Assembly: GCF_009467825.1 (NCBI RefSeq)
Contig: NZ_WIOK01000001.1
Span: forward strand, 186,001 to 250,000
Direction: 5' to 3'
From: Cyclobacterium xiamenense
GTDB lineage: Bacteria; Bacteroidota; Bacteroidia; Cytophagales; Cyclobacteriaceae
Length of the DNA: 64,000 nucleotides
Shown here: in pieces, positions 10,430 through 64,000 of the stretch
Layout of the letters: every line of letters begins with the position of its first letter
How positions within the stretch are numbered: the stretch's first letter is position 1
Notes under the pieces: generated by a model
Databases searched by the model: none
The model's input: the letters and a program-made list of their open reading frames with translations, nothing else
Told to the model about the DNA's origin: nothing
Position numbers and translations under genes: made by a program

Positions 10430-10433
10430 AGTT

Positions 10434-44452: not shown

Positions 44453-46150
44453 ATGTGTCTGTTTCGAAAAATGGTTTTCGGCGTTTCTTTACTGGTGTTG
44501 GCACTGTTCATCCCGGAAGCGACCACCTCAGTTGGTTACGTGCGAACGTTGGCAGAGCCACCTACCGGGTCATTGCCGATTTTCTTATGGGAAAAACAGC
44601 TTGAATCATTCCCAAAAAAAGTTAGGGAATCGCCCGGAAATGAGGCCATTTTGGTAGATGACCAGGGGGTTTGTACGATTTTTTTCATCAATCGACCGGG
44701 AGATGCTGATCGGGTGATGTATCGCCAATACACTGGTGAGAGCTGGAGTGAACCGAAAATGGCTTTTTCCTTGTCCGGTAAGGCCTACCATGCATTACAG
44801 GTCCAGCCTGTTAAAAACGGTGGCTTGGTTTGTGTCTTTCATCAATTTGGTGAAGGGAACGGGGGGTACAGGGGTCGACACCTAGACCTTTGGGTAAGCC
44901 GGCGGGTGGGCGGTATCTGGAGTGCTCCCGTTAAAATTCTTGAGGGGTACGTGGGGGCACTCCGCGGGTTCAAGAAGCTGGAGTCAGGAAGACTGCTGCT
45001 TGCATTTGGAAAAGCAGTTCCCGACCGGGAGGAGCCGCCGGCAGACGAGGCTCCGGATTATGGATGGAATGTAGTCCGGATTATGTATTCAGACGATGAA
45101 GGAAAAAGCTGGCATTCCTCCGGTAAGGAGTTGGAAGTCAAAATAGATAACCGAAAAGTGACCCGATATGGGGCAATCGAACCGGATTTAATCGAAAAGA
45201 AGGACGGGTCTCTTTGGATGCTGATTCGGACTTCGCACGGCCGCCTGTACCAAGCGATGTCCCTGGATAAGGGAGAATCCTGGACAAACCCGGTGGCCTC
45301 GCAATTTATTTCCAGCGATTCTCCGGCTTGCCTGTACCGGCTGAAAAACGGTTCGATCCTGCTGTTTTGGAACAGTTGTCAACGCTGGGATACGGTGCGT
45401 TCCTACGCGTTGGGGGGACGGGAAGTACTGCACGCAGCTGTGAGTTGGGATGAGGGAGCCAGTTGGCAGGGCTTTCGAGAGGTTGCACATTCGGTACAAT
45501 CTCCCTCTGCGGTTGGAGACCGCGGAACGGCCTACCCTTCGGTGGTCGAAACGGAGTCAGGAGACATACTGCTGGCTACGGGACAAGGGGAAGGAAAGGG
45601 GATCTACGCACTACACCCCAGATGGATCTCGGAAACGGCTCTTGATATTATCTTCACTAGGTCGGGCGGTGTCAAAACGATCAATGGCATTTCCACGCAC
45701 GGAGCGGATAACCGAGTGACTGGGGTTCATATTCCCGAAATCGACTCCTGTGGAGAATACGTAGTGAATTTCCCCATGGCAAAAAAAGGCAGCTTGAAGC
45801 TTTCGATTCCGATATCCCAAAATGGGAAAACGCTATCCCTGGCACTGACGGACCATTTTTCGATTCCTTCAGACCAGCAGGCTTCCCAAAATGCAGTCTA
45901 TTTGGTAGAAATTGAAGCCGAGGTCATTGGGAAGCTGCCGGGAAACGATGCCGCCGCCCTGATTCAGCTGGATTGGAATCTGTCGAACGCTGAGGAGGTA
46001 CTTGAGGTATCGGTAAATGGGACACCGATTGGACGGTATCCTCCAGAAAGAAAGACCGTGCTTGGTTTGAACTACATTCGGCTCGGTACTTCGTCCAGCC
46101 CGCATATGCCAATACTGCTGGAGTCTTTGCAGTTTATTTCCAACGAATGA
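44453..46150 (+). CDS. Sialidase-fold (Asp-box) exported protein with C-terminal beta domain
   Basis: The 565-residue protein has a signal peptide (VFGVSLLVLALFIPEATTS). A six-bladed sialidase-type propeller covers about 50-410. Asp boxes are visible as SDDEGKSWHSS, SLDKGESWTNP and SWDEGASWQGF. Residues about 420-565 form a separate beta-sandwich-like domain (EYVVNFPMAKKGSLKLSIP, then VSVNGTPIGRYPP). It does not show a clear classic GH33 arginine triad by eye. It is transcribed away from the GntR regulator and lies 267 bases before susC. Annotators often call such proteins exo-alpha-sialidase; activity on sialic acid is unproven. Confidence 0.8.
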   Translation: MCLFRKMVFGVSLLVLALFIPEATTSVGYVRTLAEPPTGSLPIFLWEKQLESFPKKVRESPGNEAILVDDQGVCTIFFINRPGDADRVMYRQYTGESWSEPKMAFSLSGKAYHALQVQPVKNGGLVCVFHQFGEGNGGYRGRHLDLWVSRRVGGIWSAPVKILEGYVGALRGFKKLESGRLLLAFGKAVPDREEPPADEAPDYGWNVVRIMYSDDEGKSWHSSGKELEVKIDNRKVTRYGAIEPDLIEKKDGSLWMLIRTSHGRLYQAMSLDKGESWTNPVASQFISSDSPACLYRLKNGSILLFWNSCQRWDTVRSYALGGREVLHAAVSWDEGASWQGFREVAHSVQSPSAVGDRGTAYPSVVETESGDILLATGQGEGKGIYALHPRWISETALDIIFTRSGGVKTINGISTHGADNRVTGVHIPEIDSCGEYVVNFPMAKKGSLKLSIPISQNGKTLSLALTDHFSIPSDQQASQNAVYLVEIEAEVIGKLPGNDAAALIQLDWNLSNAEEVLEVSVNGTPIGRYPPERKTVLGLNYIRLGTSSSPHMPILLESLQFISNE

Positions 46151-46292
46151 TCAGGTTGTATAAATACATCCTATGCTAGAAGCCATACCAATCTTTTTCA
46201 TCTTCTAGTGATAGGAATATTTCCCCATAGGCTACAATCAGGGTTTTGTCAGCGGGGTCCTGACACCAGAATGAAAAAAAATACCCCGTACA

Positions 46293-46323
46293 TTTTGATG
46301 GTGTTGATTAATGTGTATATTTG
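46293..46323 (+). promoter_or_regulatory. Candidate promoter of the susCD operon
   Basis: TTG (46295-46297) is followed after 18 bases by TATATTTG (46316-46323), matching the Bacteroidota TTG / TAnnTTTG pair with good spacing. It lies 94 bases before the susC ATG, so the long AT-rich leader (46324-46417) could carry post-transcriptional control. Confidence 0.6.
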
Positions 46324-46417
46324 AATAAATCATACATATTATTTGTTTTGTAAACACCTATTTAATAATAGTATATGATTTTAGATCCGTTTATTTAAAT
46401 AATAAATACTATAAGAA

Positions 46418-49400
46418 ATGCAGCATTACTACGCGGGTTTTCTGAGACGATTGCTTGGCACCACCGTTCTGGTCGTATTTATTGGACTTGGGACGAGCTT
46501 TGGACAGGCAAGAACAGTAACTGGAACGGTGCTATCCGAAGATGATGGTACCACGATTCCGGGGGTGAATATTATTGTGGTGGGTACGGCAACGGGTGCC
46601 GTTACGGATTTGGAGGGAAATTTTTCCCTGACGCTCACCGGTGAGAACCCTGTTTTGCGGTTTTCTGCGATTGGTTTCAGCCCGGAAGAAATTGCCGTAG
46701 GTAATCAGGCAATCCTCGAAGTTCGGCTTTCAACCGATGTCGGAGCCCTGGAAGAGATAATTGTCGTGGGCTATGGCGAACAATCCAGGGAAAAGCTAAC
46801 AACGTCAGTAAGTACGCTGGATACCAAAGTCCTTGAAAATGTACCGTTGGGGAATGCTGCCTCAGCATTGCAGGGTACTGTCTCTGGGGTGAGGGTTCAA
46901 ACGTTGAGTGGTCAGCCTGGAGCTGCACCTAGAATAATTGTGAGGGGCGGAACATCCATAAATAACCCCAATGGTGCCCAGCCATTGTACGTGGTTGATG
47001 GTGTCATTCGAGACGATATCGAAGGGATTAACCCGATGGATATTGAATCCATGCAGGTATTAAAGGACGCTGCGTCCACTGCGATCTACGGGGCAAGGGC
47101 CTCAAATGGGGTGGTGATTTTAACGACAAAAACAGGCAAATCCGGTGCGACGAAAGTAACCTACCGGTATACCGTCGGCACCTCTCAATTGAGACAAAAA
47201 TACGATCTCCTTTCTGCCAGGGATTATATTTATTATGCAAGATCAGGATTAGCGGCTACAGGCATAAAGTCTCCAACACGGCTTGCGCAGCTAAACGGTG
47301 CATTTGGATATGGCATAGGAAATGACCTTACCAATAATACCGCATATACAACGCAGTATCTGACTCCTGAAAATGAGTACAAGCTGAATGAAGGATGGGA
47401 AAGCATGCCTGATCCGGTTGACCCTACAAAAACGATTATTTTTGACGATGTGGATTGGCAAGATGTATTGTTCAGAACCGCAGTAACTCATGATCATTAC
47501 CTAAATCTTTCAGGCGGATCTGAAGACGCGACGTTTAATATTGGCGTTGGTTATGCCGATATGGATGGAACGGCGATTACCACAAATTACAAACGATTTA
47601 CAGCGAATATGAATGGGAGGTTAAAGGTGAACGATAGATTATTTGTATTTGCGGGCCTGAATTTCACCAGGTCGTCGGATAACCTCGTGTACAGCGAAAA
47701 CAATTTGTTTGAAAGATCTATTGCTACTCCCCCAACGGCCAAATACACCTTCGAAGATGGAACACTGTCTCCTGGGGTAAACCGATCGTTAGGAAACCCG
47801 GCTTACCACCTGAGCAGAAGTAGAAATGACAATACATTAACACTTATGACACTAAGCGGTGGTGCGAATTGGGAGCTTGCACCTGGACTAAGTTTTGAGC
47901 CTTCAGCCTCTCTCTTTTCAAGGACAAATACTGCCAATACGTTTTTAATGTCCTACCTTAATTCACCGATTCAATTAGTGGAAGACCGAAATGCCACAGG
48001 TAGACAGGAGAATTGGGAGCAGATTCAGGTGGATGCGGTTTTTAATTACGAAAAAAGCATCGGAGGGCTACATAATGTGAATGCTACCCTTGGCTATTCC
48101 TTGTATCAGCGAGATAATTATACGCTTTTTGCTCAGGGTAGGGGGGCAGCAACGGACCTAATTCCAACGCTAAATGCCTCAGGAGAACCCGTAGCAGTTT
48201 CGAGTACCAAAGGGAAGCAGCTAATTCTGGGCTATTTTGGAAGAGCCAACTATGATTTTGATAACAAATACCTTGTTTCGGTGAGTGCGCGATACGATGG
48301 TGCTTCTAATTTGGGCTCCGCCTACAAATGGGGCTTCTTTCCAGGTATATCGGCCGGGTGGAATCTCCACAACGAGTCGTTCTGGAACCAACCCGCGGCT
48401 ATTGATAAATTTAAGATACGGGCAAGTTATGGGCTAAATGGTAATCTGGGGAATTTAGGTGATTTCCAATCCCAAGGAGCGTACAGTGTTGGCTCCATTT
48501 ATCAGGGAAATGCGGCGGTAGAGTACACGACTATCGCCAACCCAAACCTTAGATGGGAAGAATCGAGAACGTTTGATATCGGCTTTGATGCAAGTCTTTT
48601 TGATGGCAAAGTCACATTACTATTCGACTATTATCAACGAGTGACCTCCAATCTCATTACCACGTTGGCGATGCCCAAGTTAACCGGGTTTACCAGTATT
48701 TTGACGAATCTGGGTAGTTTGGAGAATAGTGGAGTTGAGCTTGAAGTGAATTTGAACCTGCTCGAAACGAAGGACTGGATGTGGTCTATTGGATTCAATA
48801 CTTCTTTCGTGCAAAACGAGATATTGGAATTGCCGGAAAATGACAACGAAAATAACAGGATTGGAGGTATATTCATATACGATCGGGCTGTAGGAGATTA
48901 TGTCTGGCGCGGTGGACTACAAGAAGGGGGTAGGATTGGAGAATTGTACGGATACCAGTACCAGGGGATATTTCCCACCGATCAAGCAGCGGCGGAAGCG
49001 CCAGCTGATATGATCATGCCCGGTCCGGATCGCAGCCGGTTTGGTGGTGACGTTGACTGGCTGGATGTAGACGATAATGGGGTAATCGATACCCGGGATC
49101 GCGTATACATGGGAAATATTTTCCCTAGATGGACCGGGGGATTTTCCAATAATGTGAACTATAAGGGGATCAACCTGTACCTCCGAATGGACTATACAAC
49201 AGGGCATACCATTTATAATTACGTTCGTGCAAATCTGGATGGTCAGTTTGTCGGCAACACCAACATGAGTTCAAATATTCTGAGATCCTGGGAGAATCAA
49301 GGGGATGTAACGGACGTGCCCAGGTTTTATTGGGCAGACCAGGTCGCACAGAGTAACTATTGGCGGGGAGACCCCAGGAATATCAATAATGGAAGTGGAA

Positions 49401-49639
49401 GTTCTGTAAATTATGAAAGAGGAGATTTTCTGGCCCTGAGAGAGCTAACTTTAAGCTATAATTACATGGCAGATTGGTATAAAAAGATTGGAATTGAGGG
49501 CATCAGAGTTAACCTTACAGGAAATAACCTGTACTACTTTACCGATTTCAGCGGGCTTTCACCGGAAGATGGCGGGATGAACAGAGGACGTTTTCCGGTT
49601 CCGCGAAACATCATGTTAGGTATCAACCTCTCTCTTTAA
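46418..49639 (+). CDS. SusC/RagA-family TonB-linked outer membrane protein
   Basis: The 1073-residue protein is the outer-membrane barrel of a SusCD glycan importer. Order: signal peptide (1-31), carboxypeptidase-D-like domain (ARTVTGTVLSEDDGTTIPGV near 32), TonB box and linker (EEIIVVGYGEQSRE near 113), plug (VYDVDGV-type segment PLYVVDGVIRDD, SMQVLKDAASTAIYGARAS) and a 22-strand barrel from about 250. The C-terminus ends ISLSL-like (GINLSL), as usual. The N-terminal architecture is that of RagA/SusC without an anti-sigma (STN) domain. It lies 28 bases before susD. Confidence 0.96.
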   Translation: MQHYYAGFLRRLLGTTVLVVFIGLGTSFGQARTVTGTVLSEDDGTTIPGVNIIVVGTATGAVTDLEGNFSLTLTGENPVLRFSAIGFSPEEIAVGNQAILEVRLSTDVGALEEIIVVGYGEQSREKLTTSVSTLDTKVLENVPLGNAASALQGTVSGVRVQTLSGQPGAAPRIIVRGGTSINNPNGAQPLYVVDGVIRDDIEGINPMDIESMQVLKDAASTAIYGARASNGVVILTTKTGKSGATKVTYRYTVGTSQLRQKYDLLSARDYIYYARSGLAATGIKSPTRLAQLNGAFGYGIGNDLTNNTAYTTQYLTPENEYKLNEGWESMPDPVDPTKTIIFDDVDWQDVLFRTAVTHDHYLNLSGGSEDATFNIGVGYADMDGTAITTNYKRFTANMNGRLKVNDRLFVFAGLNFTRSSDNLVYSENNLFERSIATPPTAKYTFEDGTLSPGVNRSLGNPAYHLSRSRNDNTLTLMTLSGGANWELAPGLSFEPSASLFSRTNTANTFLMSYLNSPIQLVEDRNATGRQENWEQIQVDAVFNYEKSIGGLHNVNATLGYSLYQRDNYTLFAQGRGAATDLIPTLNASGEPVAVSSTKGKQLILGYFGRANYDFDNKYLVSVSARYDGASNLGSAYKWGFFPGISAGWNLHNESFWNQPAAIDKFKIRASYGLNGNLGNLGDFQSQGAYSVGSIYQGNAAVEYTTIANPNLRWEESRTFDIGFDASLFDGKVTLLFDYYQRVTSNLITTLAMPKLTGFTSILTNLGSLENSGVELEVNLNLLETKDWMWSIGFNTSFVQNEILELPENDNENNRIGGIFIYDRAVGDYVWRGGLQEGGRIGELYGYQYQGIFPTDQAAAEAPADMIMPGPDRSRFGGDVDWLDVDDNGVIDTRDRVYMGNIFPRWTGGFSNNVNYKGINLYLRMDYTTGHTIYNYVRANLDGQFVGNTNMSSNILRSWENQGDVTDVPRFYWADQVAQSNYWRGDPRNINNGSGSSVNYERGDFLALRELTLSYNYMADWYKKIGIEGIRVNLTGNNLYYFTDFSGLSPEDGGMNRGRFPVPRNIMLGINLSL

Positions 49640-49667
49640 TTCAAGCGCTGATCAAACAAAAAATGTC

Positions 49668-51152
49668 ATGAAAAATTTAGTTAATAGTAAGGGTTATCTA
49701 CTTGGCATGGTCGCTTTCATGCTTACTTATTCGTGCACGGAACCACTGGAATTAGCGCCGATCAGTTCGATTGGAGCTAATTCCTTCTGGCAGTCCGAAC
49801 AAGATGCCTCGGGAGGCGTAATTGGGATGTACAACCAGTTTAGAAACATGGCCTCCAGGTCATTATACTACATGGGAGAGGCCAGAAGTGAAGTGATGGG
49901 ATTCGGTCTTCAAAATGCAGATTTCCGGCAGAAATACTTTGAAAATGATATGAATGAGGGTAACGCTGACCTGGAATGGTTGCAAGCCTATCGAATTATC
50001 AATTACGCCAATTTGGTGGTAGAAAACGTACCGGATATTTCGTTTCCCGATGAGAACAAGAAAAACGAGTTACTTGCCCAAGCCTACACCATGAGGGCAT
50101 TTGTCTATTTCGTTTTGGCCAAAACCTGGGGTGATGTTCCGTTGGTGACCGTGCCTGTCGAAGGCTATGACGCAGAGACTACTTTTCAGGAAAGAGCCGC
50201 CGTGGCTATCGTTTTTGACCAGATAAAAAGTGATTTGGAGGAAGCAATTTCATTGTTTCCGACCAATGATTTTCCTCCAGGAAGGGCCGTGTGGTCAAGG
50301 CCCGCTGCCAACGTTCTCAAGGGCGATGTTTATTTGTGGACAGGAAAGACGATGGGTGGAGGAGAAGGAGATATAGCTACCGCATTGACCGCTTTGAATG
50401 AGGCAAGGTCGGCAGATTTAGCCCTTCTCGACGATTTTTCAAGAATATTTGATTTTGACAATAAAGGCAATCAGGAAGTCATTTTTGCTGTGCATTTTAA
50501 CGACTTTGAGTCCTCAAACAATATGTATTCCGATATGTATATCAATGCCTTGGATATCAGAGATACCTATTCGCAACAAACATTGGAAACAATAGGAACT
50601 CCAGGAGGATTCAATTGGTGGGCTCCTTCAGCTACTTTGAGAAATCAATTTACCGAGGAAGATAGCAGAAAGTCCGGAAGTTTTCTAGAAATTTATTCGA
50701 ATGATGATGACAATACCTTTATCACGTCTATTGTGTTAAAAGGCAACGGCTATTCCGAAGGAGGTACACGAAGGTTCCTGGATGATATTGTAATTTACAG
50801 ATATGCAGAATTGTTGCTTCTTATAGCTGAAGCCAAAAATGCGCTCGGGCAGGACCCTTCCGGCGAAATCAATATGGTCAGAAACAGGGCATACGGTGAT
50901 GATTTTTCCATGTATGAGTTTTCCAACGGTTCTCAAGCTGAAAATGATGAATCCATTTTGCAGGAAAGGTTGTTTGAATTGGCCTTTGAGGGTAAAAGGT
51001 GGTGGGATTTGGTCCGTTTTGGAAAAGCCTTCGAGAAAGTTCCCTCCCTTCAGGGCAGAGAAGGCCAAGCGCATTTGCTTCTCTGGCCCATCACACTGGA
51101 AACCATAAGTCTCAATTCTAAGATAACCCAAAACCCGGGATACGAACAATAA
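49668..51152 (+). CDS. SusD/RagB-family glycan-binding lipoprotein
   Basis: SusD proteins cap the SusC barrel on the cell surface and capture glycan. The 494-residue protein has a lipoprotein signal (GMVAFMLTYSCTEP, lipid Cys23). The TPR-like SusD helices include LLAQAYTMRAFVYFVLAKTW near 142, and the C-terminal family segment ERLFELAFEGKRWWDLVRFG lies near 435. The substrate cannot be read from sequence. It pairs with the SusC gene upstream and leads into four sialidase-fold genes. Confidence 0.96.
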   Translation: MKNLVNSKGYLLGMVAFMLTYSCTEPLELAPISSIGANSFWQSEQDASGGVIGMYNQFRNMASRSLYYMGEARSEVMGFGLQNADFRQKYFENDMNEGNADLEWLQAYRIINYANLVVENVPDISFPDENKKNELLAQAYTMRAFVYFVLAKTWGDVPLVTVPVEGYDAETTFQERAAVAIVFDQIKSDLEEAISLFPTNDFPPGRAVWSRPAANVLKGDVYLWTGKTMGGGEGDIATALTALNEARSADLALLDDFSRIFDFDNKGNQEVIFAVHFNDFESSNNMYSDMYINALDIRDTYSQQTLETIGTPGGFNWWAPSATLRNQFTEEDSRKSGSFLEIYSNDDDNTFITSIVLKGNGYSEGGTRRFLDDIVIYRYAELLLLIAEAKNALGQDPSGEINMVRNRAYGDDFSMYEFSNGSQAENDESILQERLFELAFEGKRWWDLVRFGKAFEKVPSLQGREGQAHLLLWPITLETISLNSKITQNPGYEQ

Positions 51153-51186: not shown

Positions 51187-52356
51187 ATGGTAAAAGCCCA
51201 ACTATTCCTTTCCCTAACAGTGATTGTGGCAGTTCTTTGCCTACCTGTTCGAGCACAAGATAATTTCTTGACCGCTGAAAATGGAAAATCCATCTCTATA
51301 GGTGCTTTGGTTCATCAGGATGTGGAGGAAATAAAAGATTTAATGATGGGGCCATTTGTCAAACTTGACAATGGCAATATCTTATCGGTTGACGGAACCG
51401 ATTGTATCATAAGCGACGACAATGGAAAAACCTGGCAAAGGTGGCCTGTTTTTGAGCATCCTGAAAAATTTCTGATTTCAAATGAGCGGGCGCTATTAAA
51501 GACGAGTAATGGGGTAATAATCCTGGCCTTTATGAATTTGAAGGAAAGAGCCAACTGGGATTGGCAGAGAGACATTTCTGACTCACCGGGAGCCAGGCTA
51601 CCTACCTACACCGTGAGAAGTCTTGATGGAGGAAAAACCTGGCAAGATGTGCAAAAACTCCACAATGAATGGACGGGTGCTATCCGTGATATGATTGAAA
51701 CGGAAAATGGGAATGTCGTATTTACCTCCATGATGATGAGGCACCACCCTGGTCATCACACGGTCATGACCTATAAGTCCGGAAATGAAGGAGACACCTG
51801 GGAACGATCAAATATCATTGACCTTGGAGGCATTGGCCATCACAGTGGGGTGACGGAAGCAACTATTGAAGTACTTCAAAAAGGGAAATTATGGCTTTTA
51901 ATGCGCACTAACTGGGGGACATTCTGGGAAGCATTTTCAATGGATGATGGTAAAACCTGGGAAAATATTCGGTCAACAGACATAGAAGCTAGTTCCGCGC
52001 CGGGTATGCTTAAAAGACTTCAAAGCGGTAGATTGGTATTGGTATGGAACCGAAGATTTCCAGAAGGTACTCAATCATACCCACTTAGCGGAGGCGACAA
52101 TCAATGGTCAGAGGTGGCCGCAAGTAATCACAGGGATGAATTGTCCATAGCCTTTTCTGAAGATGAGGGCTTGACATGGTCTGATCCAAAAGTGATTGCA
52201 AAAATAGACAGCAGTCAAAAAATGGATCCACCACTAAAAAGAATTTCCTACCCGTATGTTTTTGAGTACGCGCCCGGAGAAATATGGATTACCACTATGC
52301 AGGGGGGCTTACGGGTCAAGCTTATGGAAAAGGACTTTAGTAAATCAACAAAATAA
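51187..52356 (+). CDS. Sialidase-fold (Asp-box) exported protein
   Basis: The 389-residue protein has a Sec signal peptide (residues 1-24, ending VRAQ). A sialidase-type propeller follows, with four or five Asp boxes: SDDNGKTWQRW, SLDGGKTWQDV, SMDDGKTWENI and SEDEGLTWSDP. It lacks the RNSEG motif of the three later paralogues and is closer to the 565-residue protein upstream (LLMRTNWGTFWEAFSMDDG compared with LIRTSHGRLYQAMSLDKG). Its stop and the next start overlap as TAATG, so translation is coupled. The substrate is unknown. Confidence 0.82.
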   Translation: MVKAQLFLSLTVIVAVLCLPVRAQDNFLTAENGKSISIGALVHQDVEEIKDLMMGPFVKLDNGNILSVDGTDCIISDDNGKTWQRWPVFEHPEKFLISNERALLKTSNGVIILAFMNLKERANWDWQRDISDSPGARLPTYTVRSLDGGKTWQDVQKLHNEWTGAIRDMIETENGNVVFTSMMMRHHPGHHTVMTYKSGNEGDTWERSNIIDLGGIGHHSGVTEATIEVLQKGKLWLLMRTNWGTFWEAFSMDDGKTWENIRSTDIEASSAPGMLKRLQSGRLVLVWNRRFPEGTQSYPLSGGDNQWSEVAASNHRDELSIAFSEDEGLTWSDPKVIAKIDSSQKMDPPLKRISYPYVFEYAPGEIWITTMQGGLRVKLMEKDFSKSTK

Positions 52357-53513
52357 TGGGTACAAAAATAGGTGTTCTTTTATCAAACCGCTTGTTGTTT
52401 TCTCTGCTACTGGTAGGAGCTGCTCTTTATGCGATAGGCCAATCCCATGCGCAACAGCTGCGAAATCCATCAGAGATTGTGCTGCATGTTGGAAAGGATG
52501 GAAAAACCCCGAGAAACAGCGAGGGTAGCTTTATATCGTTAGCCGGTGGAACCATTTTATTTGCGTATTCCAAGTTTGAAAACGAATCGGGAGACCATGC
52601 CCGGGCGCACATAGCCGGGCGTTTTTCGGAGGATGGTGGGTCAACCTGGACGGAGCATGACGACGTAATTCTTCAAAACGAAGGCGATATGAACGTGATG
52701 TCCGTGTCCTTTCTCAGGTTAAAAGATGGGTCTATTGCCTTGGTTTATGCCCGGAAGAACTCTTTGGACGACTGCATCCCCTACATACGGATTTCTACCG
52801 ATGAGGCAAAGACATGGTCGGATCCGGTACGGATTATACCGGATAGGGAAGGGTATTTTGTAGTGAACAATGACAGGGTCGTTCAATTGGCAAGTGGCCG
52901 ACTGCTCGTTCCGGTATCCCGACACAAAACAAAAGGGGTTGATTTTTCCATGAGAGGTACTATTTTTTGTTATTTTTCGGACGATATGGGGAAAACCTGG
53001 ACGAGTAGTGCGGAGGTTCCAAATCCACAAGATGTTGTCCTTCAGGAACCTGGAGTGGTGCAGCTCGAAGACGGAGACATAGCCATGTGGCTACGGACGG
53101 ATACAGGTGTTCAATACCTGAGCCGGTCACAAGATCAAGGAATAACATGGCAACCTGTGGTGCCTTCGGATATACCTTCGCCAAGAGCACCGGCCTCAAT
53201 AAAACGTATTCCAGCAACCGGAGATCTTTTGCTAGTATGGAATGATAACGATGGTTCAGATGCAGCGCGTGCCGCATTCAGGACTCCCCTAACGGCAGCC
53301 ATTTCTACCGACGAGGGTACCAGCTGGACGCCTGTAAAAGTAATCGAAAATGATCCAGAAGGATTTTTCTGCTATACGGCTATCGCGTTTGTCGGTGACC
53401 AGGTACTCCTGGGTTATATGGCCGCTGAAAGAACAGAATTGGCCAAAAGGATCCCGTTGGTGCTGCGTAAAGTGCCGTTACAAGAGTTTTATACCATGCA
53501 AATTAACCTATGA
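52356..53513 (+). CDS. Sialidase-fold protein, RNSEG paralogue 1
   Basis: The 385-residue protein has a signal peptide (LLFSLLLVGAALYAIGQSHA). A sialidase-type propeller follows with five Asp boxes (SEDGGSTWTEH, STDEAKTWSDP, SDDMGKTWTSS, SQDQGITWQPV, STDEGTSWTPV). Shared signatures with the paralogues at 53510 and 57914 are TPRNSEGSFISL (Arg53-Gly57), NVMSVSFLRLKDGS, YARKNSLDDCIP and EGYFVVNNDRVVQL. The conserved Arg, Glu, Asp and Lys residues are candidate catalytic or binding residues. It overlaps the next gene by 4 bases (ATGA). Confidence 0.82.
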   Translation: MGTKIGVLLSNRLLFSLLLVGAALYAIGQSHAQQLRNPSEIVLHVGKDGKTPRNSEGSFISLAGGTILFAYSKFENESGDHARAHIAGRFSEDGGSTWTEHDDVILQNEGDMNVMSVSFLRLKDGSIALVYARKNSLDDCIPYIRISTDEAKTWSDPVRIIPDREGYFVVNNDRVVQLASGRLLVPVSRHKTKGVDFSMRGTIFCYFSDDMGKTWTSSAEVPNPQDVVLQEPGVVQLEDGDIAMWLRTDTGVQYLSRSQDQGITWQPVVPSDIPSPRAPASIKRIPATGDLLLVWNDNDGSDAARAAFRTPLTAAISTDEGTSWTPVKVIENDPEGFFCYTAIAFVGDQVLLGYMAAERTELAKRIPLVLRKVPLQEFYTMQINL

Positions 53514-56447: not shown

Positions 56448-57917
56448 ATGGCATCACTATTCAAATTGAGAGCTAATTATTTGTTTATCGGCTTACCTGT
56501 AGGGGCTTTATTGATCTTGTATGTATGCTCAGTATCTACCTTTGCCGCTGACAATCAACAACAGCCTAATGTCTTATTTGTATTGGTTGATGACCTGGGG
56601 TGGAGTGATCTGTCCTTTATGGGCAGCCGAGGATATGAAACTCCAAATATTGATAGACTAGCCTCAGAAGGTATGGTATTTACAGATTTCTATTCGGGAG
56701 GACCAGTCTGTTCTCCAACAAGAGCTTCAATTATGACAGGAAAATCAACTGCAAGAACTGGAATTACCACCTATCTTATTACTCCTGAACAGGATGACTA
56801 TTTTGTCACGCACCAGCTGGAATTAGCTGAATATACGATTGCTGAATCGCTAAAAGGCCAGGGGTATGCAACCGGTTTTTTCGGTAAATGGCATTTGGGA
56901 TATGAGCAAAAGCATTGGGCATCCAATCAGGGATTTGACATTGCCATGGGTGGCGTATCTTCTGTAAATGCCTGGAAAGTATTGTTTCCTGACCAGAAAC
57001 CACCTTTGGATTATCTGACGCAAATCAAGTATTTTTCACCATACCATGCCACTCATATTGATGATGGACCGACGGGTGAATATATGACGGATAGATTAAC
57101 CAATGAGGTGATTGATTTTATAGAGGATAAATGTGGTAAAGAGGAATCATTTTTTGCCTTCTTATCATTCCATACCGTACATACACCATTGGAGGCTAAA
57201 GCAGAAACTATCAGGAAATATGAGAAAAAGTTTGACGAAGAAGGAGTACTTGGAATTGAGGAAAAGGCCAATGGTTCACGGGTTTATCAAAATATCCCGG
57301 AATATGCAGCCATGGTAGAGCATTTGGATGAAAATGTTGGGCGTTTGTTGAAAAAATTGGATGAGCTCAACCTACGCGAAAATACGATTGTAATTTTTAC
57401 TTCTGATAATGGGGGTAAAATGAATGTGACTTCAAATGCCCCATTAAGAGGTGGTAAGCACAACCTGTATGAAGGCGGGATACGCGTGCCTCTTATTTTA
57501 CGGTGGCCGGACAAAATCAAGGCTGAAACCATAAATTCAACGCCACTAATAACAGATGATCTGTATCCAACCATTCTGGATCTTCTTGACCTATCTCTGA
57601 TTCCGGAGCAACATCAGGATGGCCGTAGTTTCAAAGATATTTTATTAGGAAAATCAAAATCTATTAACAAAGGCCCTTTGTATTGGCACTATCCGCACGG
57701 GGTATTTCAAGCAGCAGTTAGATCAGGCGATTACAAAATGATATACACGTACAAGACAGGTAACGCTTCGTTATATAACCTGAGGAAAGACATTGGTGAA
57801 AAAGTCGATTTAAGTAAAACACATGAAAGAAAAACGAAGAAAATGAAAGCCTTATTAAGCCAATGGCTTGATGAAACGAAGGCAAGATTTCCAGATGAAG
57901 GAACAATCAAACCATGA
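56448..57917 (+). CDS. Sulfatase, arylsulfatase A type
   Basis: The 489-residue type I sulfatase has a signal peptide (residues 1-34, ending STFAA). The metal site is LVDDLGWSD, and the formylglycine motif is CSPTR with Cys88, in a Cys-type sulfatase needing FGE or anSME maturation. GKWHLGYEQKHWASNQGFD and FTSDNGGKMN follow, with RGGKHNLYEGGIRVP in the substrate region. It differs from the N-sulfatase-like neighbour and fits the broad arylsulfatase A group (O-sulfate ester cleavage). Exact sulfate position is not predictable. It overlaps the next gene by 4 bases and shares the AT-rich composition. Confidence 0.9.
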   Translation: MASLFKLRANYLFIGLPVGALLILYVCSVSTFAADNQQQPNVLFVLVDDLGWSDLSFMGSRGYETPNIDRLASEGMVFTDFYSGGPVCSPTRASIMTGKSTARTGITTYLITPEQDDYFVTHQLELAEYTIAESLKGQGYATGFFGKWHLGYEQKHWASNQGFDIAMGGVSSVNAWKVLFPDQKPPLDYLTQIKYFSPYHATHIDDGPTGEYMTDRLTNEVIDFIEDKCGKEESFFAFLSFHTVHTPLEAKAETIRKYEKKFDEEGVLGIEEKANGSRVYQNIPEYAAMVEHLDENVGRLLKKLDELNLRENTIVIFTSDNGGKMNVTSNAPLRGGKHNLYEGGIRVPLILRWPDKIKAETINSTPLITDDLYPTILDLLDLSLIPEQHQDGRSFKDILLGKSKSINKGPLYWHYPHGVFQAAVRSGDYKMIYTYKTGNASLYNLRKDIGEKVDLSKTHERKTKKMKALLSQWLDETKARFPDEGTIKP

Positions 57918-59053
57918 AAAAAATCAGCTTATTTTATTTAATGGTGTTTGCCACCCAATTTCTGGCTGGCATTGAGAATATGTATGCTCAAAACACTAAA
58001 TATAGCGATGTCCGTATGGTATTAAAACTTAACCCAGGGGAAAACAATCCCAGAAATAGCGAAGGTGACTTTATCAGATTGAAAGATGGCCGGATCATGT
58101 TTGTTTATACCCATTTCACCGGCCGATCGGCCAGTGATTTTGGCTCCGCCTTTTTGGCAGCCAGGTATTCAGAAGATAATGGCCATACCTGGACAAAGGA
58201 AAGCAAGGCTGTCGTTTCCAACGATGGGGGAATGAATGTCATGTCTGTTTCTTTACTCAGGCTAAAGGACGGAAATATTGCGCTGTTTTACGCCCGGAAA
58301 AACAGCCTGATGGACTGTATTCCACTCATGCGGATTTTCACCGATGAAGGAGATACCTGGTCCGATCCCGTAGCTTGTATCACCGATAGGAAAGGATATT
58401 TTGTACTGAATAATAACCGGGTCATACAACTTGAAAATGGGAGGATACTGATGCCGGTGGCCTTGCACGAGACATTGGAAGGAGAAGCATTTAATGAAAA
58501 AGGTCGGCTATTTACCTATTATTCCGACGACAACGGGAAAACCTGGCAGTCAGGAAAGGAGGTTGGGAACCCGAAAAATGCTACGTTACAGGAACCTGGG
58601 CTTGTGGTACTGAATAGTGGGAAAATTATGATGATCATTCGTACCGATGAAGGTGTACAGTTTGCAGCCTATTCTAAAAATGATGGAGAAAAGTGGACTG
58701 GTGCTAAAGCCACTGACATACCCTCTCCACTATCCCCGGCTACTATTTCGAGGATTCCCTCTACTGGGGATCTAATACTGGTTTGGAACAATAATGGGGT
58801 TAAAAATGGGGTTTATGCTGGTAAAAGGACTCCGCTAAATATCGCTATCTCCAAAGATGAAGGCAAAACCTGGCAAAACGAGCGGGTTCTGGAGGACGAT
58901 GCCGATGGATGGTATTGTTATACCGCTATTCATTTTGTCCATGACAACAACGTATTGCTTGGATACTGTGCTGGCAATCGAAGCCAGGGAACGGGTTTAG
59001 CCGTCACAAAAATTACCTTGTTGGACCTGGCCTGGATTTATGGAGATAAATAG
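57914..59053 (+). CDS. Sialidase-fold protein, RNSEG paralogue 3
   Basis: The 379-residue protein has a signal peptide (residues 1-25, ending NMYAQ). Five Asp boxes are seen (SEDNGHTWTKE, FTDEGDTWSDP, SDDNGKTWQSG, a degenerate SKNDGEKWTGA, SKDEGKTWQNE). The signature NPRNSEGDFIRL (Arg47) and YARKNSLMDCIP align with the paralogues at 52356 and 53510. In the third signature Asp is replaced by Met (SLMDC compared with SLDDC). It lies immediately after the second sulfatase, so the two later paralogues flank the sulfatase pair. Confidence 0.82.
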   Translation: MKKISLFYLMVFATQFLAGIENMYAQNTKYSDVRMVLKLNPGENNPRNSEGDFIRLKDGRIMFVYTHFTGRSASDFGSAFLAARYSEDNGHTWTKESKAVVSNDGGMNVMSVSLLRLKDGNIALFYARKNSLMDCIPLMRIFTDEGDTWSDPVACITDRKGYFVLNNNRVIQLENGRILMPVALHETLEGEAFNEKGRLFTYYSDDNGKTWQSGKEVGNPKNATLQEPGLVVLNSGKIMMIIRTDEGVQFAAYSKNDGEKWTGAKATDIPSPLSPATISRIPSTGDLILVWNNNGVKNGVYAGKRTPLNIAISKDEGKTWQNERVLEDDADGWYCYTAIHFVHDNNVLLGYCAGNRSQGTGLAVTKITLLDLAWIYGDK

Positions 59054-59112
59054 GTTTTTTGCTCGACTGATTGGTCCCGAAGTCGGTCCGGCATCCAAAT
59101 AATTATGTACTA

Positions 59113-59874
59113 ATGTATCGTATCGGAGTCCTGTTTTTTTTAAAATTCACACTGCTTTTCGCAACCGGGGGTTGTTTTGCTGCCCATTCCCGAATGCCTG
59201 TACAGACCGAAAATGGGTCAAAGCGGGAAAAAACATATACCGTGGTGGCTTTCGGCAATTCCATTACGGCTACCAGAAGCACCGTTCAACGGGTGTTTGC
59301 ACAGCGGTTGCCAGAACTATTGGCGGTGCGGGGAATAACGGCAGAAGTCATCAATGCCGGTATACCGGGTAGCCATACGGGTAGCATCAGGGATCACTCC
59401 CTGTTCAAAATTAGGCATGCGAAGGACAGATTTGAGTCCGATGTGCTGGCCCATCATCCCGATTTGGTAACCATTGGGTTTGGAACCAACGATGCCTATA
59501 TTGATGGATCCGATCCGAATGGCCCCTCCCGAATTCCATTATCGGATTATGAAAAAAACCTTACATTCATGATTAAGACGCTTCAGGAATGTCGGGTGAA
59601 AGTTGTTTTGATAGCACCCAACATGTTGGGAGGAAAATTTCCTGGCTATCAAAATGAGCGGTTGATGCAGTATGTGGCGACCGTTCGAAGATTATCCAGA
59701 GAGTACCAAACCGGATTGGTTGATAACGTCGAATTATTTATGAAATACCATAAAGACACGGGTTATCCTTTGGAAGCGTTGCTATTGGATGGTATTCATC
59801 CCAATGACCTGGGACATCAATTGATGGCCGAAAAAATGGTGGAGGAGGTGCAACGCCTACTGATATTAATTTAA
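59113..59874 (+). CDS. SGNH/GDSL hydrolase
   Basis: The frame opens at a TTG (59071), but the ATG at 59113 gives a proper signal peptide and possible lipoprotein Cys21 (FTLLFATGGCFAA). The 253-residue enzyme shows the SGNH blocks: FGNSITATRST with Ser50, the oxyanion Gly in INAGIPGSHTG, GFGTNDAYIDG, and DGIHPNDLGH with the catalytic Asp and His. These enzymes are esterases, often removing acetyl or other acyl groups from glycans. Its neighbours point to de-esterification of the same exported substrate. Confidence 0.92.
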   Translation: MYRIGVLFFLKFTLLFATGGCFAAHSRMPVQTENGSKREKTYTVVAFGNSITATRSTVQRVFAQRLPELLAVRGITAEVINAGIPGSHTGSIRDHSLFKIRHAKDRFESDVLAHHPDLVTIGFGTNDAYIDGSDPNGPSRIPLSDYEKNLTFMIKTLQECRVKVVLIAPNMLGGKFPGYQNERLMQYVATVRRLSREYQTGLVDNVELFMKYHKDTGYPLEALLLDGIHPNDLGHQLMAEKMVEEVQRLLILI

Positions 59875-59883
59875 ACTGAAAAT

Positions 59884-60801
59884 ATGTCGGAGTTATTTCC
59901 TATCTACACGTTACGTGGTCCAAAGGATGGTCCCAAGGGGCTGATTATCGCCGGAGTCCACGGAGACGAATACGAGCCCATACTGGCGGTGATGCAACTC
60001 ATCCGAACGCTGGGGGCACGCTTGCTTTGTGGAAGCCTTACATTGGTGCCCATTGCAAACAAAAGCGCCTATCTGGCAGGCGCCCGTGTCGGTGAAGATG
60101 GCCTGGACCTGGCGCGGACCTGCCCCGGAGACAAAGCCGGTAGCATCACCGAACAAGTAGCCTACCAAATCAGCAAACGGATTCAAGCGTCGGATTTTAT
60201 GATTGATATGCATACCGGGGGCAACCTTTTCGATATTCTCCCCTTATCCGGTTACATGATCCATTCCAATTCGAAGGTGTTGGAAACGCAGCGTTCGATG
60301 GCAGCGGCATTTAACTTGCCCGTTATTTGGGGGACCAGTCCGGATTTGCAAGGTAGAACCTTGTCTATAGCCCGAGACGCGGAGATTCCTGCCATATATA
60401 CAGAATTCAGAGGCGGAGGATTTCGTCCGGAAGGAATCGGACGCCTGGTAGCCGGCTGCGAACATGTGCTGTCGTACTTTGAAATGCTGAGCGAAGGAGA
60501 AAGGTCAGCCAAGATTTCCCTTGAAATCGAAGACAAAGAGCCTGGAAGCGGGCAGCTGCAACGGATGTATCCGGCTCCTGGAGCAGGTGTATTTGTACCT
60601 CAGGTTGGATTGGGCGCAGAGGTTCGAAGATACGATCCGATCGGAGAAATCTGGGATTACAGTGGAAAGGTTACCAATCAAGTGTTGGCAGAAAAGGACG
60701 GCACGGTATTTTTGTTGCGCGCGATTCCCCGAGTCGAAAAAGGGGAAGCGCTGGCCGGGATATTACCCAATTCAAAATTGACTAGCAATGGAAGGGATTG
60801 A
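59884..60801 (+). CDS. Succinylglutamate desuccinylase/aspartoacylase-family deacylase
   Basis: The 305-residue protein has the zinc site HGDE with His26 and Glu29, and His110 in DMHTGG. DLARTCPG near 75 corresponds to the family DLNR-FPG segment. The late Glu in TEFRGGG and the C-terminal beta domain (IGEIWDYSGKV) fit. The family hydrolyses N-acyl amides or similar bonds of small acidic molecules. No signal peptide, so it is predicted to be cytoplasmic. It heads the intracellular module and overlaps the SDR gene by 14 bases. Confidence 0.85.
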   Translation: MSELFPIYTLRGPKDGPKGLIIAGVHGDEYEPILAVMQLIRTLGARLLCGSLTLVPIANKSAYLAGARVGEDGLDLARTCPGDKAGSITEQVAYQISKRIQASDFMIDMHTGGNLFDILPLSGYMIHSNSKVLETQRSMAAAFNLPVIWGTSPDLQGRTLSIARDAEIPAIYTEFRGGGFRPEGIGRLVAGCEHVLSYFEMLSEGERSAKISLEIEDKEPGSGQLQRMYPAPGAGVFVPQVGLGAEVRRYDPIGEIWDYSGKVTNQVLAEKDGTVFLLRAIPRVEKGEALAGILPNSKLTSNGRD

Positions 60802-61612
60802 CAAACATGAGGGTCGGGTGGTCATCGTCACCGGTGCATCCAGAGGAATCGGAAAAGCGATCGCCAGGCAATTTATTGAAAATGGCGATCGTGTGGCGAT
60901 GGTAGCGGATGATGTGGAGGAGCTACGCAGCAGTGTGGACGGAATCCGTTGGCGAGCAAACGTCCTGGTATTGCCTGGAGATTTGGCTGACCAGGTCTTT
61001 CTACAGGAGCTTGTGACTGAAACCCTATCCAAATGGGGAAGGGTAGACATTTTAATAAACAATGCGGCTTGGCGCACGCTGGAAACCTTGCGGACCATTT
61101 CCCTGGATACCTGGGAAAAAACCATTCGAATTTGCCTGACTGCTCCTGTTTTTTTGAGCAAACTGGTGTCCGCTAACATGGAAAGCAGGGAATCCACAGG
61201 CGTAATCGTGAACATCAGCAGCATCATGGCGGAAAGGGCCGGTGGCACCAGTCCCGCCTACGTGGCTTCCAAGGGGGCCTTGCTGAGCATGACCTATGAA
61301 ATGGCCGCTTTGTACGGACCCTCGGGAATTCGGGTGGTTGCCGTTTGTCCGGGGAACGTTCATACAGCCTTGAGTACGGATTTCATGGATCGAGCGGGCA
61401 ATAATATCAGTCAACGACTTGTTCAGGATATGGAAAACCAGACGCCCTTGAAACGAAGCGCAACGCCGCAAGAAATCGCAAACGGCGTGTTTTGGCTTTG
61501 CTCGTCCGAGGCCTCGTTTGTCACCGGTACTTCCATTCAGATGGATGGAGGATTTAGTCACAATTTCAGTAGTTACACCAATAAAAAATCACAATTTCCC
61601 AACGAGTTTTGA
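60788..61612 (+). CDS. SDR oxidoreductase
   Basis: The 274-residue short-chain dehydrogenase has GASRGIGKAI near 14-23, NNAA near 92, and the catalytic YVASK with its Ser in NISSIMAERAGG. The residue after beta-2 is VADDVEE, with Asp suggesting NAD. It overlaps the M14-like deacylase upstream and the PLP enzyme downstream (TTGA). The role is probably oxidation of a sugar or amino-sugar hydroxyl; the substrate is unknown. Confidence 0.88.
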   Translation: MEGIDKHEGRVVIVTGASRGIGKAIARQFIENGDRVAMVADDVEELRSSVDGIRWRANVLVLPGDLADQVFLQELVTETLSKWGRVDILINNAAWRTLETLRTISLDTWEKTIRICLTAPVFLSKLVSANMESRESTGVIVNISSIMAERAGGTSPAYVASKGALLSMTYEMAALYGPSGIRVVAVCPGNVHTALSTDFMDRAGNNISQRLVQDMENQTPLKRSATPQEIANGVFWLCSSEASFVTGTSIQMDGGFSHNFSSYTNKKSQFPNEF

Positions 61613-62715
61613 GAGGAATCTGGAAATACCAAAAATGGATGGATTTGCCCCAGGAGCTGCTTCCATTTACCCTGGGAGAAGGGTCCACCCCGCTGATTCG
61701 GTCAAAAACCATCGGCCCGGATCAGGGACAGGGGCACTTGTATTTTAAACTGGAGACAGCCAATCCTTCCGGCTCGTACAAAGACCGGTTTGCTGCCTTT
61801 GCCGTCGCTGACATGCTGCGAACAAAAAGCGAACGTTGCCTGGCTACCTCCAGTGGAAATACCGGGGCAGCGCTTGCCGCCTATGCCGCTGCTGCGGGGC
61901 TCCCTTGTCACATCGTCCTGGTAGAAGGAGCTCCGGAAGGTAAGTTGGCGCAGATGCAAGCCCATGGAGCCCGTTTGGTAACCGTTAAGGGTTTTGGGAT
62001 CAACAAGGAGATTAGCGAAAGCATATTTGGTAAACTAGCAATGCTGGCCTCCGATTACCAGACGCAGATTCAGGTAAGTGCCTATACCTACAGTCCGGTA
62101 GGCATGCAGGGGGTGCAAACCATTGGATTTGAACTGGCAGAAGACTTGCCGGAGGCGGATCATGTGTTTGTACCTGCAGGTGGAGGAGGTCTTGCCCTGG
62201 CTATTTGCAGGGGATATCAACTATGGAAGCATAGGCAACCTGAATTTAAGCTCCCAAAAATCCATTGTGTACAGCCGGAGGGCAACAATACCATTGCCGG
62301 AAATTTACGGGCAGGTTTGGAACATGCCCAGGCCGTGGAAAATGCCTTTACCCGGGTAAGTGGACTGCAAGTGGCCAGCGTCATCGACGGAAACGAAACC
62401 TTGCAGGCCTGCCGGCTCTCCGGAGGAAATGGATACCTGGTGTCTGACGAGGATGTCTTTGACGCGCAGCGAATACTGGCACAGTGTGAGGGCGTTTTTG
62501 CGGAACCAGCCGGTGCTGTTGCGCTGGCAGGATGGAGAAAATCCTTAAAACTCGGAGAAATGTCTGCAGATGAAAAGTCCGTTTGTATTATTACTGGGAA
62601 CGGCTTTAAAGATCCGCCTTCTGTAGCAGCAATGACCGCAGCGAATCCTCTCCATTTTCTGGATAATGTAGGCGAATTAGAAAACTATTTTAAAAGTAAC
62701 GAATCGAATCAGTAA
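61609..62715 (+). CDS. Threonine-synthase-like PLP enzyme (fold type II lyase)
   Basis: The 368-residue protein starts at a TTG in a TTGA overlap; the ATG at 61639 would remove the conserved IWKYQKW start of this family, so the TTG is preferred. Lys58 (SGSYKDRFAAF) is the PLP lysine, SSGNTGAALA binds the cofactor phosphate and VPAGGGGLALAI is the second glycine-rich loop. Family members are threonine synthases, dehydratases and ammonia-lyases. In this operon a beta-elimination of an amino-sugar acid or amino acid is more likely than threonine synthesis, but that is inference. Confidence 0.82.
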   Translation: MRGIWKYQKWMDLPQELLPFTLGEGSTPLIRSKTIGPDQGQGHLYFKLETANPSGSYKDRFAAFAVADMLRTKSERCLATSSGNTGAALAAYAAAAGLPCHIVLVEGAPEGKLAQMQAHGARLVTVKGFGINKEISESIFGKLAMLASDYQTQIQVSAYTYSPVGMQGVQTIGFELAEDLPEADHVFVPAGGGGLALAICRGYQLWKHRQPEFKLPKIHCVQPEGNNTIAGNLRAGLEHAQAVENAFTRVSGLQVASVIDGNETLQACRLSGGNGYLVSDEDVFDAQRILAQCEGVFAEPAGAVALAGWRKSLKLGEMSADEKSVCIITGNGFKDPPSVAAMTAANPLHFLDNVGELENYFKSNESNQ

Positions 62716-62724
62716 CAAATCACC

Positions 62725-63651
62725 ATGGATGAACGACTAAAAGGGGTGTGGCCGGCGTTATTGACCCCCATGAATGAAGCAGGTAGACCGGATATCGCTG
62801 AGCTAGAAAAATGGCTGGATGTACTCATCTCGCAAGGCATGGATGGACTCTATTTGCTGGGATCCACCGGACAAGGATTCCTATTAGGGGAGGCGGAAAG
62901 AAAGAAGGTTACGGAGGTGGCTGCTTCGGTGAACGGAGGCCAGGTGCCCCTGATCATACAGGTTGGTTCCATGACTACCGGCGAATCGGTTCGCCTGGCG
63001 CAGCATGCGGCTGGCTGCAACGTAGATGGGATTTCGTCCGTCGCACCGGTATATTACGGATCCTCCGATGGGAGTTCCGCCATGGCTTTGAAGCACTACG
63101 AATCGATTGCAAGTGCTACCGATCTGCCATTTTTTCCGTACCAATTGGGAACAAGCGGTTTTTCTGATGGATTGGTTGGATTTGTCAATAAATTGCTTCA
63201 ACTCCCCAACATGGCAGGCATGAAGCTAACAACCAACAATCTGCTGGAAATAAGTACCATTTCTTACAGTTCCCGGGGAAAGCTGACGCTTTTCAGTGGA
63301 GCGGATGAGCTCATGTGCCATGCGGCCCTTTGCGGGACATCCGGGGCGATTGGTTCTTTTTACAATGTATTTGGACCCGAGTGCCAGTTTGTTCGTAACT
63401 CCTTTATGGAAGGAAATGTGGCCCTGGCAACCGATTTTATGTTGATTTTTCAGGAAATGATCGCGGAGGTCTTGCCGAATGTCTGGACGTTTTTTCGTCA
63501 GGCCATCCGGCTCCGGTATGAGGTGGACATCGGCCCGGCGATCCCGCCGGTTGGCAATACCAACCGTCCCTGGAAAGAAGAAAAAGTGGTCGCCCTGCTG
63601 GAGCGGATCATCAATGCAGCAAAAGTCAACGAACCCAACGAATCAAAATGA
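62725..63651 (+). CDS. DapA-family pyruvate-dependent aldolase
   Basis: The 308-residue protein has the Schiff-base Lys167 (GMKLTTNN), the Tyr139 catalytic position (PYQLG) and GSTGQG at 46-51. This matches N-acetylneuraminate lyase and KDG-type aldolases rather than lysine biosynthesis, given the operon. The likely reaction is retro-aldol cleavage of a 2-keto-3-deoxy sugar acid, or of a sialic-type acid, to pyruvate and an aldehyde. It overlaps the RraA-like gene by 4 bases (ATGA). Confidence 0.88.
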   Translation: MDERLKGVWPALLTPMNEAGRPDIAELEKWLDVLISQGMDGLYLLGSTGQGFLLGEAERKKVTEVAASVNGGQVPLIIQVGSMTTGESVRLAQHAAGCNVDGISSVAPVYYGSSDGSSAMALKHYESIASATDLPFFPYQLGTSGFSDGLVGFVNKLLQLPNMAGMKLTTNNLLEISTISYSSRGKLTLFSGADELMCHAALCGTSGAIGSFYNVFGPECQFVRNSFMEGNVALATDFMLIFQEMIAEVLPNVWTFFRQAIRLRYEVDIGPAIPPVGNTNRPWKEEKVVALLERIINAAKVNEPNESK

Positions 63652-64000
63652 AAGAAGTAAGCTATTCCCTGAAAGAAATCGAAGAAAACCTCTACGTCGC
63701 AGTTATTTCGGATGCACTGGACGCATTGGGGTACCCCAATCAGTCGCCCGAGGGGGAATTTTCCATTCAGGTTGGAAAAACCCGGTTGGCAGGTAGGTGT
63801 AAAACCACGCTATGGTCGGACATGTACCACACGGACCCAAACCCCTACGAATTGGAGTTAAAGGCCGTAGACGATTGCATGCCAGGTGACGTTTTCATTG
63901 CAGCAGCAGCAGGTTCCAGCCGATCGGGCATCTGGGGAGAACTGCTTTCCACGGCGGCAAAAAACCGGGGATGTGTTGGAGCTCTGGTGGACGGTTGCAT
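63648..64000 (+). CDS. RraA-like protein (truncated by window end)
   Basis: The first 117 residues are visible. They resemble RraA / 4-hydroxy-4-methyl-2-oxoglutarate aldolase proteins (AVISDALDALGYPN, then AVDDCMPGDVFIAAAAG and GELLSTAAKNRGCVGALVDG). This family includes pyruvate aldolases and oxaloacetate decarboxylases, and also the RNase E inhibitor in Enterobacteria. In a sugar-acid operon an aldolase-like or decarboxylase role is likely. Complete gene not seen. Confidence 0.8.
   Translation, partial: MKEVSYSLKEIEENLYVAVISDALDALGYPNQSPEGEFSIQVGKTRLAGRCKTTLWSDMYHTDPNPYELELKAVDDCMPGDVFIAAAAGSSRSGIWGELLSTAAKNRGCVGALVDGC

Follow-up and report, generated by a model that had tools for sequence, protein, structure and literature searches.

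A candidate sialic-acid utilisation locus with a proposed oxidative catabolic tail in Cyclobacterium xiamenense

Two routes from N-acetylmannosamine (ManNAc), the NanK/NanE and the NanE-II/RokA route, have been described (PMC10017367, PMC2693436), and are represented by the NanA-NanK-NanE pathway of E. coli and the NanL-NanE-II-RokA pathway of B. fragilis. The ong cluster of Pseudoalteromonas, which serves GlcNAc1A, combines a deacetylase, a pyridoxal phosphate (PLP) deaminase that forms 2-keto-3-deoxygluconate (KDG), a RidA protein and an SSS symporter (PMC9537276); its deacetylase OngB is D-aminoacylase-like (PMC12017989), and its deaminase OngC, of fold III, also takes D-Ser and D-Thr (PMC9537276). 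Here we compared these systems with a SusCD island in a 64,000-nt stretch of the Cyclobacterium xiamenense genome (contig NZ_WIOK01000001.1, positions 186,001 to 250,000), hereafter the window; "window-equivalent" positions carry the same numbering past the window end along the contig. On balance, we lean towards reading this island as a locus for sialic-acid utilisation whose catabolic tail is oxidative and leads from ManNAc to KDG.

Like the E. coli and B. fragilis pathways, the locus brings together sialidase-like, transporter, mutarotase-like and N-acetylneuraminate lyase (NAL)-like genes, whereas it holds no kinase or epimerase and instead carries genes or domains of the SDR, SGL, deacylase, PALP and RidA types. 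With the ong pathway it shares a deacetylase, a PLP enzyme proposed to yield KDG, RidA, an SSS/SSF symporter and TonB-linked uptake. In contrast to ong, the locus contains no D-aminoacylase-fold deacetylase with a fold-III deaminase and no GH20 OngA; Pfam assigned the corresponding enzymes to AstE_AspA and PALP, and the lyase, SDR and SGL domain would act before them. Gene content, gene order, families, conserved residues and the conservation of the operon were all observed directly.

Sialic-acid marks and layout of the locus

The SusD-type protein scored 308 bits against the NCBIfam NanU model (cut-off 425) and 44 bits against the SusD model, and is thus NanU-like. A kelch domain fused to an SSF symporter exceeded the Pfam NANM cut-off (145 versus 45 bits) and passed none of the NCBIfam mutarotase cut-offs. 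The sequence-only reading of the window had listed a "DapA-family aldolase"; the DHDPS family was correct, while the closest relatives proved to be NALs, which made up all of the 34 best PDB sequences (from 7.7e-36, many being variants of one enzyme), with the first DHDPS (9e-22) and YagE (6e-21) far weaker. Lyase residues Ser47, Thr48, Tyr139, Lys167, Thr169, Asp194 and Glu195, which correspond to the carboxylate, aldol-cleavage and sugar motifs of NAL (PMC4016182), were invariant in 7/7 aligned rows. The predicted enzyme therefore carries the Schiff-base Lys, the Tyr and the carboxylate and sugar-binding motifs of NAL, save for Gln50 in place of Glu. Its scores fell under both NCBIfam NanA equivalog cut-offs (156 versus 281 bits and 140 versus 382), and we call it NAL-like only.

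Because the NanA-like lyase, the NanM-SSF fusion and the NanU-like SusD all indicate sialic acid, we are fairly confident that the island is a sialic-acid polysaccharide utilisation locus (PUL), whose substrates are probably sulfated or O-acylated sialoglycans. The same three genes displaced an N-sulfated, heparan-like glycan as the leading idea for the target, while the broader picture in the sequence-only reading, of exo-acting enzymes in a SusCD island that serves a sulfated, N-acylated amino sugar, was retained. Every gene that it had named was recovered in its place by Pfam and coordinates, as follows.

43527..44228, minus strand: GntR/FCD regulator (nearest NCBIfam models NanR and LldR, both below cut-off)
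44294..44310, no strand: perfect palindrome AGCGGATA-T-TATCCGCT, a possible operator (sequence search)
44453..46150, plus strand: BNR1, remote sialidase-fold propeller (Pfam BNR_2)
46418..49639, plus strand: SusC-type TonB-linked outer membrane protein (TIGR04056, 813 bits, cut-off 368)
49668..51152, plus strand: SusD-type lipoprotein, nearest NanU (308 bits, cut-off 425)
51187..52356, plus strand: BNR2, propeller near GH181/GH33 sialidases (Pfam BNR_2, structure and sequence matches)
52356..53513, plus strand: BNR3, GH33-like propeller (Pfam BNR_2, aligned residues)
53510..54661, plus strand: BNR4, GH33-like propeller (Pfam BNR_2, aligned residues, model)
54646..56232, plus strand: sulfatase 1, S1 family, nearest N-sulphoglucosamine sulphohydrolase and S1_8A (motif, sequence matches)
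56448..57917, plus strand: sulfatase 2, S1 family, nearest S1_16 and entries named GalNAc-6-sulfatase (motif, sequence matches)
57914..59053, plus strand: BNR5, GH33-like propeller (Pfam BNR_2, aligned residues)
59071..59874, plus strand: SGNH/GDSL esterase (Pfam)
59884..60801, plus strand: AspA/AstE-type N-deacylase, proposed N-acetylmannosaminate deacetylase (Pfam AstE_AspA)
60788..61612, plus strand: SDR, proposed ManNAc 1-dehydrogenase (family match)
61609..62715, plus strand: PALP, fold-type-II PLP enzyme, as we take it, and proposed mannosaminate ammonia-lyase (Pfam PALP)
62725..63651, plus strand: NAL-like aldolase of the DHDPS family (sequence matches, motif residues)
63648..64000, on to window-equivalent 64307, plus strand: RraA-like gene (contig continuation)
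window-equivalent 64715-67075 (L003:2715-5075): MlrC (M81)-SGL fusion (Pfam families)

Adjacent SusC and SusD homologues flanked by secreted glycan-active enzymes identify the island as a SusCD PUL. Extending the analysis past position 64000, as had been proposed, showed that the locus continues to window-equivalent 70668 and comprises about 20 genes; those past the window are RraA, RidA, the MlrC-SGL fusion, a Gfo/Idh/MocA oxidoreductase and the NanM-type kelch propeller fused to the SSF symporter, and the island ends where it meets an MscS gene in convergent orientation at window-equivalent 70672. From SusC to NanM-SSF, neighbouring genes overlap or lie at most 50 bases apart, with the exception of 215 bases ahead of sulfatase 2; the gap between BNR1 and SusC is 267 bases. 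Besides the propellers, the Pfam search of the locus genes recovered no glycoside hydrolase family and no polysaccharide lyase family, which bears out the earlier remark that an endo-acting enzyme is missing. This absence is no puzzle, because the removal of a terminal cap needs none.

All five propellers exceeded the Pfam BNR_2 cut-off. They do not form one set, since BNR3, BNR4 and BNR5 are mutually 51-59% identical, and BNR1 and BNR2 are only remotely related to this trio and to each other. In a 24-row propeller alignment, the Glu, two Arg and the Tyr were present in 24/24 rows, the first Arg in 17/24 and the Asp in 16/24. This Arg triad, Asp, Glu and Tyr, which we take to be the GH33 catalytic residues, occurred as a full set in 16/16 rows of the BNR3/4/5 type, and on fold and residues these three are predicted GH33-type enzymes. 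Neither BNR1 nor BNR2 had the full set, as both lacked an aligned Asp and the first Arg was Lys in BNR2 (Arg in BNR1). The likeness to GH33/GH181 sialidases thus consists of the propeller fold with aligned Glu, two Arg and Tyr, plus the first Arg and the Asp in the BNR3/4/5 type; identity to solved sialidases was 12-23% among the Foldseek matches listed. A BNR4 model (mean pLDDT 84) matched GH33 sialidases such as 1eus (TM-scores 0.71 and 0.75, 23% identity), and a BNR2 model (pLDDT 81) matched GH181 Am1547 and GH33 enzymes, as did the sequence search, although both models matched 5hx0 first, and the unknown function of that protein calls for caution. GH181 sialidases carry Gln at the position of Tyr in GH33 (PMC10067855); in BNR2, Y355 aligned at this position, and we rejected its assignment as a GH181 sialidase.

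The GntR/FCD regulator is transcribed away from BNR1, and the 224-base gap between them contains the 17-base palindrome. The genome contains a single exact copy of its 15-base core and three further places with one mismatch (one for a reversed-pattern control). No copy of the core was found in locus L030 or in the Membranihabitans marinus genome (G350), and the palindrome is unsupported as a conserved operator outside the window. Immediately upstream of the regulator (40905-43463) lie three genes: one of the PIG-L deacetylase family, apparently with a signal peptide, an SDR, and a member of the FAH family whose nearest model, below cut-off, was 2,4-didehydro-3-deoxy-L-rhamnonate hydrolase. We dropped this block as part of the island, with the FAH gene unmatched in the 22 loci compared below and PIG-L matched only in L036-L038; it is possibly a separate deoxy-sugar-acid module.

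The catabolic tail and its proposed chemistry

Outside the cytoplasm, the sulfatases would remove sulfate and the SGNH esterase O-acyl groups, after which the GH33-like propellers would free sialic acid, and SusCD would import sialic acid or short sialosides. NanM may then set the anomer, the fused SSF symporter would bring sialic acid in, and the NAL-like lyase would split it into pyruvate and ManNAc. We propose that the SDR converts ManNAc to the lactone by oxidation at C1, that the SGL domain, of gluconolactonase type, opens this lactone, that the AspA-type enzyme takes off the N-acetyl group to leave D-mannosaminate, and that the PALP enzyme removes ammonia from the latter to yield KDG, with RidA assisting the enamine/imine onward. 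KDG could leave by a KDPG-aldolase route after a kinase, or through aldolases of the locus itself, RraA in this case and HpcH/HpaI in a relative; two KDPG aldolases are encoded in the genome. Each reaction, the order of the steps and the sulfation of the substrate are predictions from sequence. Among the matches listed from the open-licence literature, we found no published description of an oxidative sialic-acid route from ManNAc to KDG.

The configuration of the amino acids bears on which sugar acid enters the tail. Glucosaminate is 2R, a D-amino acid, and mannosaminate is 2S, an L-amino acid (derived by hand); both would give KDG alike, C2 and C3 losing their configuration. Of six matches to the deacylase, the first two were unassigned, and the third and fourth, the nearest with a named activity, were N-acetyl-L-2,4-diaminobutyrate deacetylases; the four PDB matches to PALP at 1e-25 were all threonine synthases. 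Because mannosaminate is an L-configured amino acid, the L-type deacylase and PALP families fit it. Fold-type-II PLP enzymes, among which we place PALP, also include D-serine dehydratase, and the stereochemical argument is hence not strict.

It could be instead that the tail oxidises another N-acetyl amino sugar, of the N-acetylglucosamine (GlcNAc) or N-acetylgalactosamine (GalNAc) type, with the NanA-like enzyme being a KDG aldolase and NanM acting on that sugar. The DHDPS family does include KDG aldolases (the match of YagE to the lyase being an example), such an enzyme would supply the aldolase missing from the conserved core, and planctomycetes have PALP without the lyase. We nevertheless consider this rather unlikely: NALs score far above YagE against the lyase, which keeps the NAL sugar-binding motif G-x-D-E (a motif that KDG aldolases may share), the L-type deacylase and PALP families are ill-suited to D-configured glucosaminate, and the NanU-like SusD and GH33-type propellers would go unexplained.

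The same family resemblances also suit a reading in which the deacylase and the threonine-synthase-like PALP act on N-acyl-L-amino acids, or on L-Ser/L-Thr of sialylated glycopeptides, while sialic acid itself is used in the ordinary way. The deacylase is similar to N-acetyl-L-amino-acid deacetylases, all four PALP matches are threonine synthases, and the operon holds an M81/MlrC metallopeptidase-family domain. This reading is improbable, in that it gives the conserved SDR and the SGL lactonase domain no role and that no peptidase family besides M81/MlrC was found among the locus genes.

For the SDR, which begins the proposed oxidation of ManNAc, the activity we postulate is that of N-acyl-D-mannosamine dehydrogenase (EC 1.1.1.233). 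That enzyme oxidises ManNAc to its lactone (PMC4016182). A search with the SDR against PDB gave generic SDRs, none named ManNAc dehydrogenase among the best 60 of 242 matches, and a profile of seven SDR orthologues gave 11 matches at 1e-45, again none so named, although a weaker match could hide below.

Distribution of the tail and points against the oxidative route

We scanned for the PALP gene with one genome per species and obtained 22 loci, from eight Bacteroidota, four planctomycetes, three Paenibacillus and seven others; G350 and L024 (Membranihabitans marinus) are the same contig and were counted once. With the window, the Bacteroidota set holds nine loci, and since L028 begins within the SDR and L040 stops after PALP, counts refer to assessable loci. 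PALP is rare, being found in 1/194 genomes of the order at 1e-40 (its own), in 2/395 of the class at 1e-55 (its own and G350) and in 14/395 of the phylum at 1e-35, 12 of these only 30-34% identical; the lyase-like gene at 1e-30 occurred in 2/395 phylum genomes, the same two that have the close PALP.

Within the Bacteroidota set, the SDR was present in 9/9 loci, and AspA, RidA, MlrC, SGL and NanM each in 8/8. NanM was joined to SSF in six of eight (in L023 across two overlapping open reading frames), and the lyase lay directly after PALP in seven of eight. MlrC and SGL are also fused in L028, and are separate genes in the remaining Bacteroidota loci where seen. RraA and MocA, each in only 3/8, were demoted as essential steps. 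Because divergent Bacteroidota share the tail and its gene order, we regard the gene set as beyond chance. A PALP tree of 31 rows, midpoint-rooted and with some very long branches, placed the window with Cyclobacterium and then Membranihabitans, and set the Bacteroidota loci and planctomycetes, 13 rows in all, apart from the remaining rows as one group (support 100/99).

Among the four planctomycete loci, one had AspA, two had none of the tail (one being a 3.3-kb contig), and in one an SDR, an SSF gene and an HpcH/HpaI aldolase accompany PALP, which we counted in favour of the oxidative reading. The Paenibacillus loci (L032-L034, about 9000-14000) carry a PALP 37-39% identical to ours, MocA and AspA, with a DHDPS-family gene in two of three, and are a possible Gram-positive counterpart; the other seven loci had none of the tail within the stretch examined. 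In Membranihabitans marinus, an HpcH/HpaI aldolase within the island (L020:14302-15120), nearest to the 2-keto-3-deoxy-L-rhamnonate aldolase model and below its cut-off, is a candidate KDG aldolase, and two overlapping open reading frames with partial propeller matches (L020:2381-3719) may be one interrupted BNR gene.

Several observations weigh against the oxidative route from sialic acid. The lyase, NanM and SusD all fall below NCBIfam equivalog cut-offs, Gln50 replaces the Glu of the lyase carboxylate motif in 7/7 rows, and two of the five propellers, BNR1 and BNR2, are without the aligned catalytic Asp. The SDR cannot be assigned from its sequence and its PDB matches were generic; MlrC, although kept in all eight loci, has no place in the scheme, and the same is true of MocA. 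The operon has no conserved KDG aldolase, given the patchy RraA. The locus of a Pedobacter metagenome-assembled genome has no lyase beside PALP (another DHDPS-family gene stands beside a BNR1 homologue and an MFS transporter), and 0/4 planctomycete loci have the lyase although PALP is present. Finally, an AGE epimerase (641 bits, cut-off 600) and NagA are encoded elsewhere in the genome.

Because of this AGE epimerase and NagA, an ordinary route of the B. fragilis type stays open, in which ManNAc would pass to GlcNAc by AGE elsewhere, then through a kinase, NagA and NagB, leaving the tail to serve another part of the substrate. This route is known in Bacteroidetes (PMC10017367), and G350 has AGE-family and NagA matches too. 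We judge it unlikely, as AGE lies on another contig, not beside the lyase as NanE-II would in the B. fragilis type, none of the genome's other DHDPS-family matches is on the AGE contig, and the lyase is kept within the tail operon in all but one of the assessable Bacteroidota loci. As for the E. coli type, the best genome match to NanE reached 24.1 bits, under the 27-bit cut-off, and no sugar kinase family was found among the locus genes, the rest of the genome not having been searched for NanK.

Sulfatases, substrate and meaning of the locus

Both sulfatases carry the Cys-type C-x-P-S/T-R motif of the S1 family. The closest entries to sulfatase 1 were N-sulphoglucosamine sulphohydrolase and a sulfatase of S1_8A, which leaves some basis for its earlier label as an N-sulfatase; its relatives share 82% identity in the two Cyclobacterium loci and 62% in Membranihabitans marinus. 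For sulfatase 2, the nearest entries were a kappa-carrageenan sulfatase of S1_16 and others named GalNAc-6-sulfatase, and its best match among the compared loci was 27%. A PUL that serves trimmed glycosaminoglycan-type fragments, N-sulfated or O-sulfated, would account for two S1 sulfatases, of which sulfatase 1 has N-sulphoglucosamine sulphohydrolase and S1_8A as its nearest entries. We hold it to be highly improbable, since glycosaminoglycan lyase, unsaturated uronyl hydrolase and hexosaminidase families were all absent from the locus, the lyase, NanM and GH33-type genes would have no place, and sulfatase 2 is so poorly matched in the compared loci.

Returning to sialic acid, we regard its sulfated form as a possible substrate, on the doubtful side of even; the sulfate may sit on sialic acid itself, and the underlying sugar could carry it instead. 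Sulfated sialic acid had been among the test substrates proposed in the sequence-only reading. The authors of a 2023 review knew of no report of a microbial sulfatase active on sulfated sialic acid (PMC10017367), and sulfatase 1 is a concrete candidate for such an enzyme.

We put forward, tentatively and with more doubt than belief, the full proposal of a third, oxidative and non-phosphorylated sialic-acid route (ManNAc to N-acetylmannosaminate, mannosaminate and KDG) together with a co-encoded sulfatase for sulfated sialic acid. If true, the activity of ManNAc 1-dehydrogenase would gain a physiological home, and the origin of the deacylase and the PLP enzyme in L-amino-acid families would be explained, following a proposed rule by which D-type enzymes serve gluco acids and L-type enzymes manno acids. 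Such a third route in free-living Bacteroidota would escape genome searches keyed on NanK or NanE.

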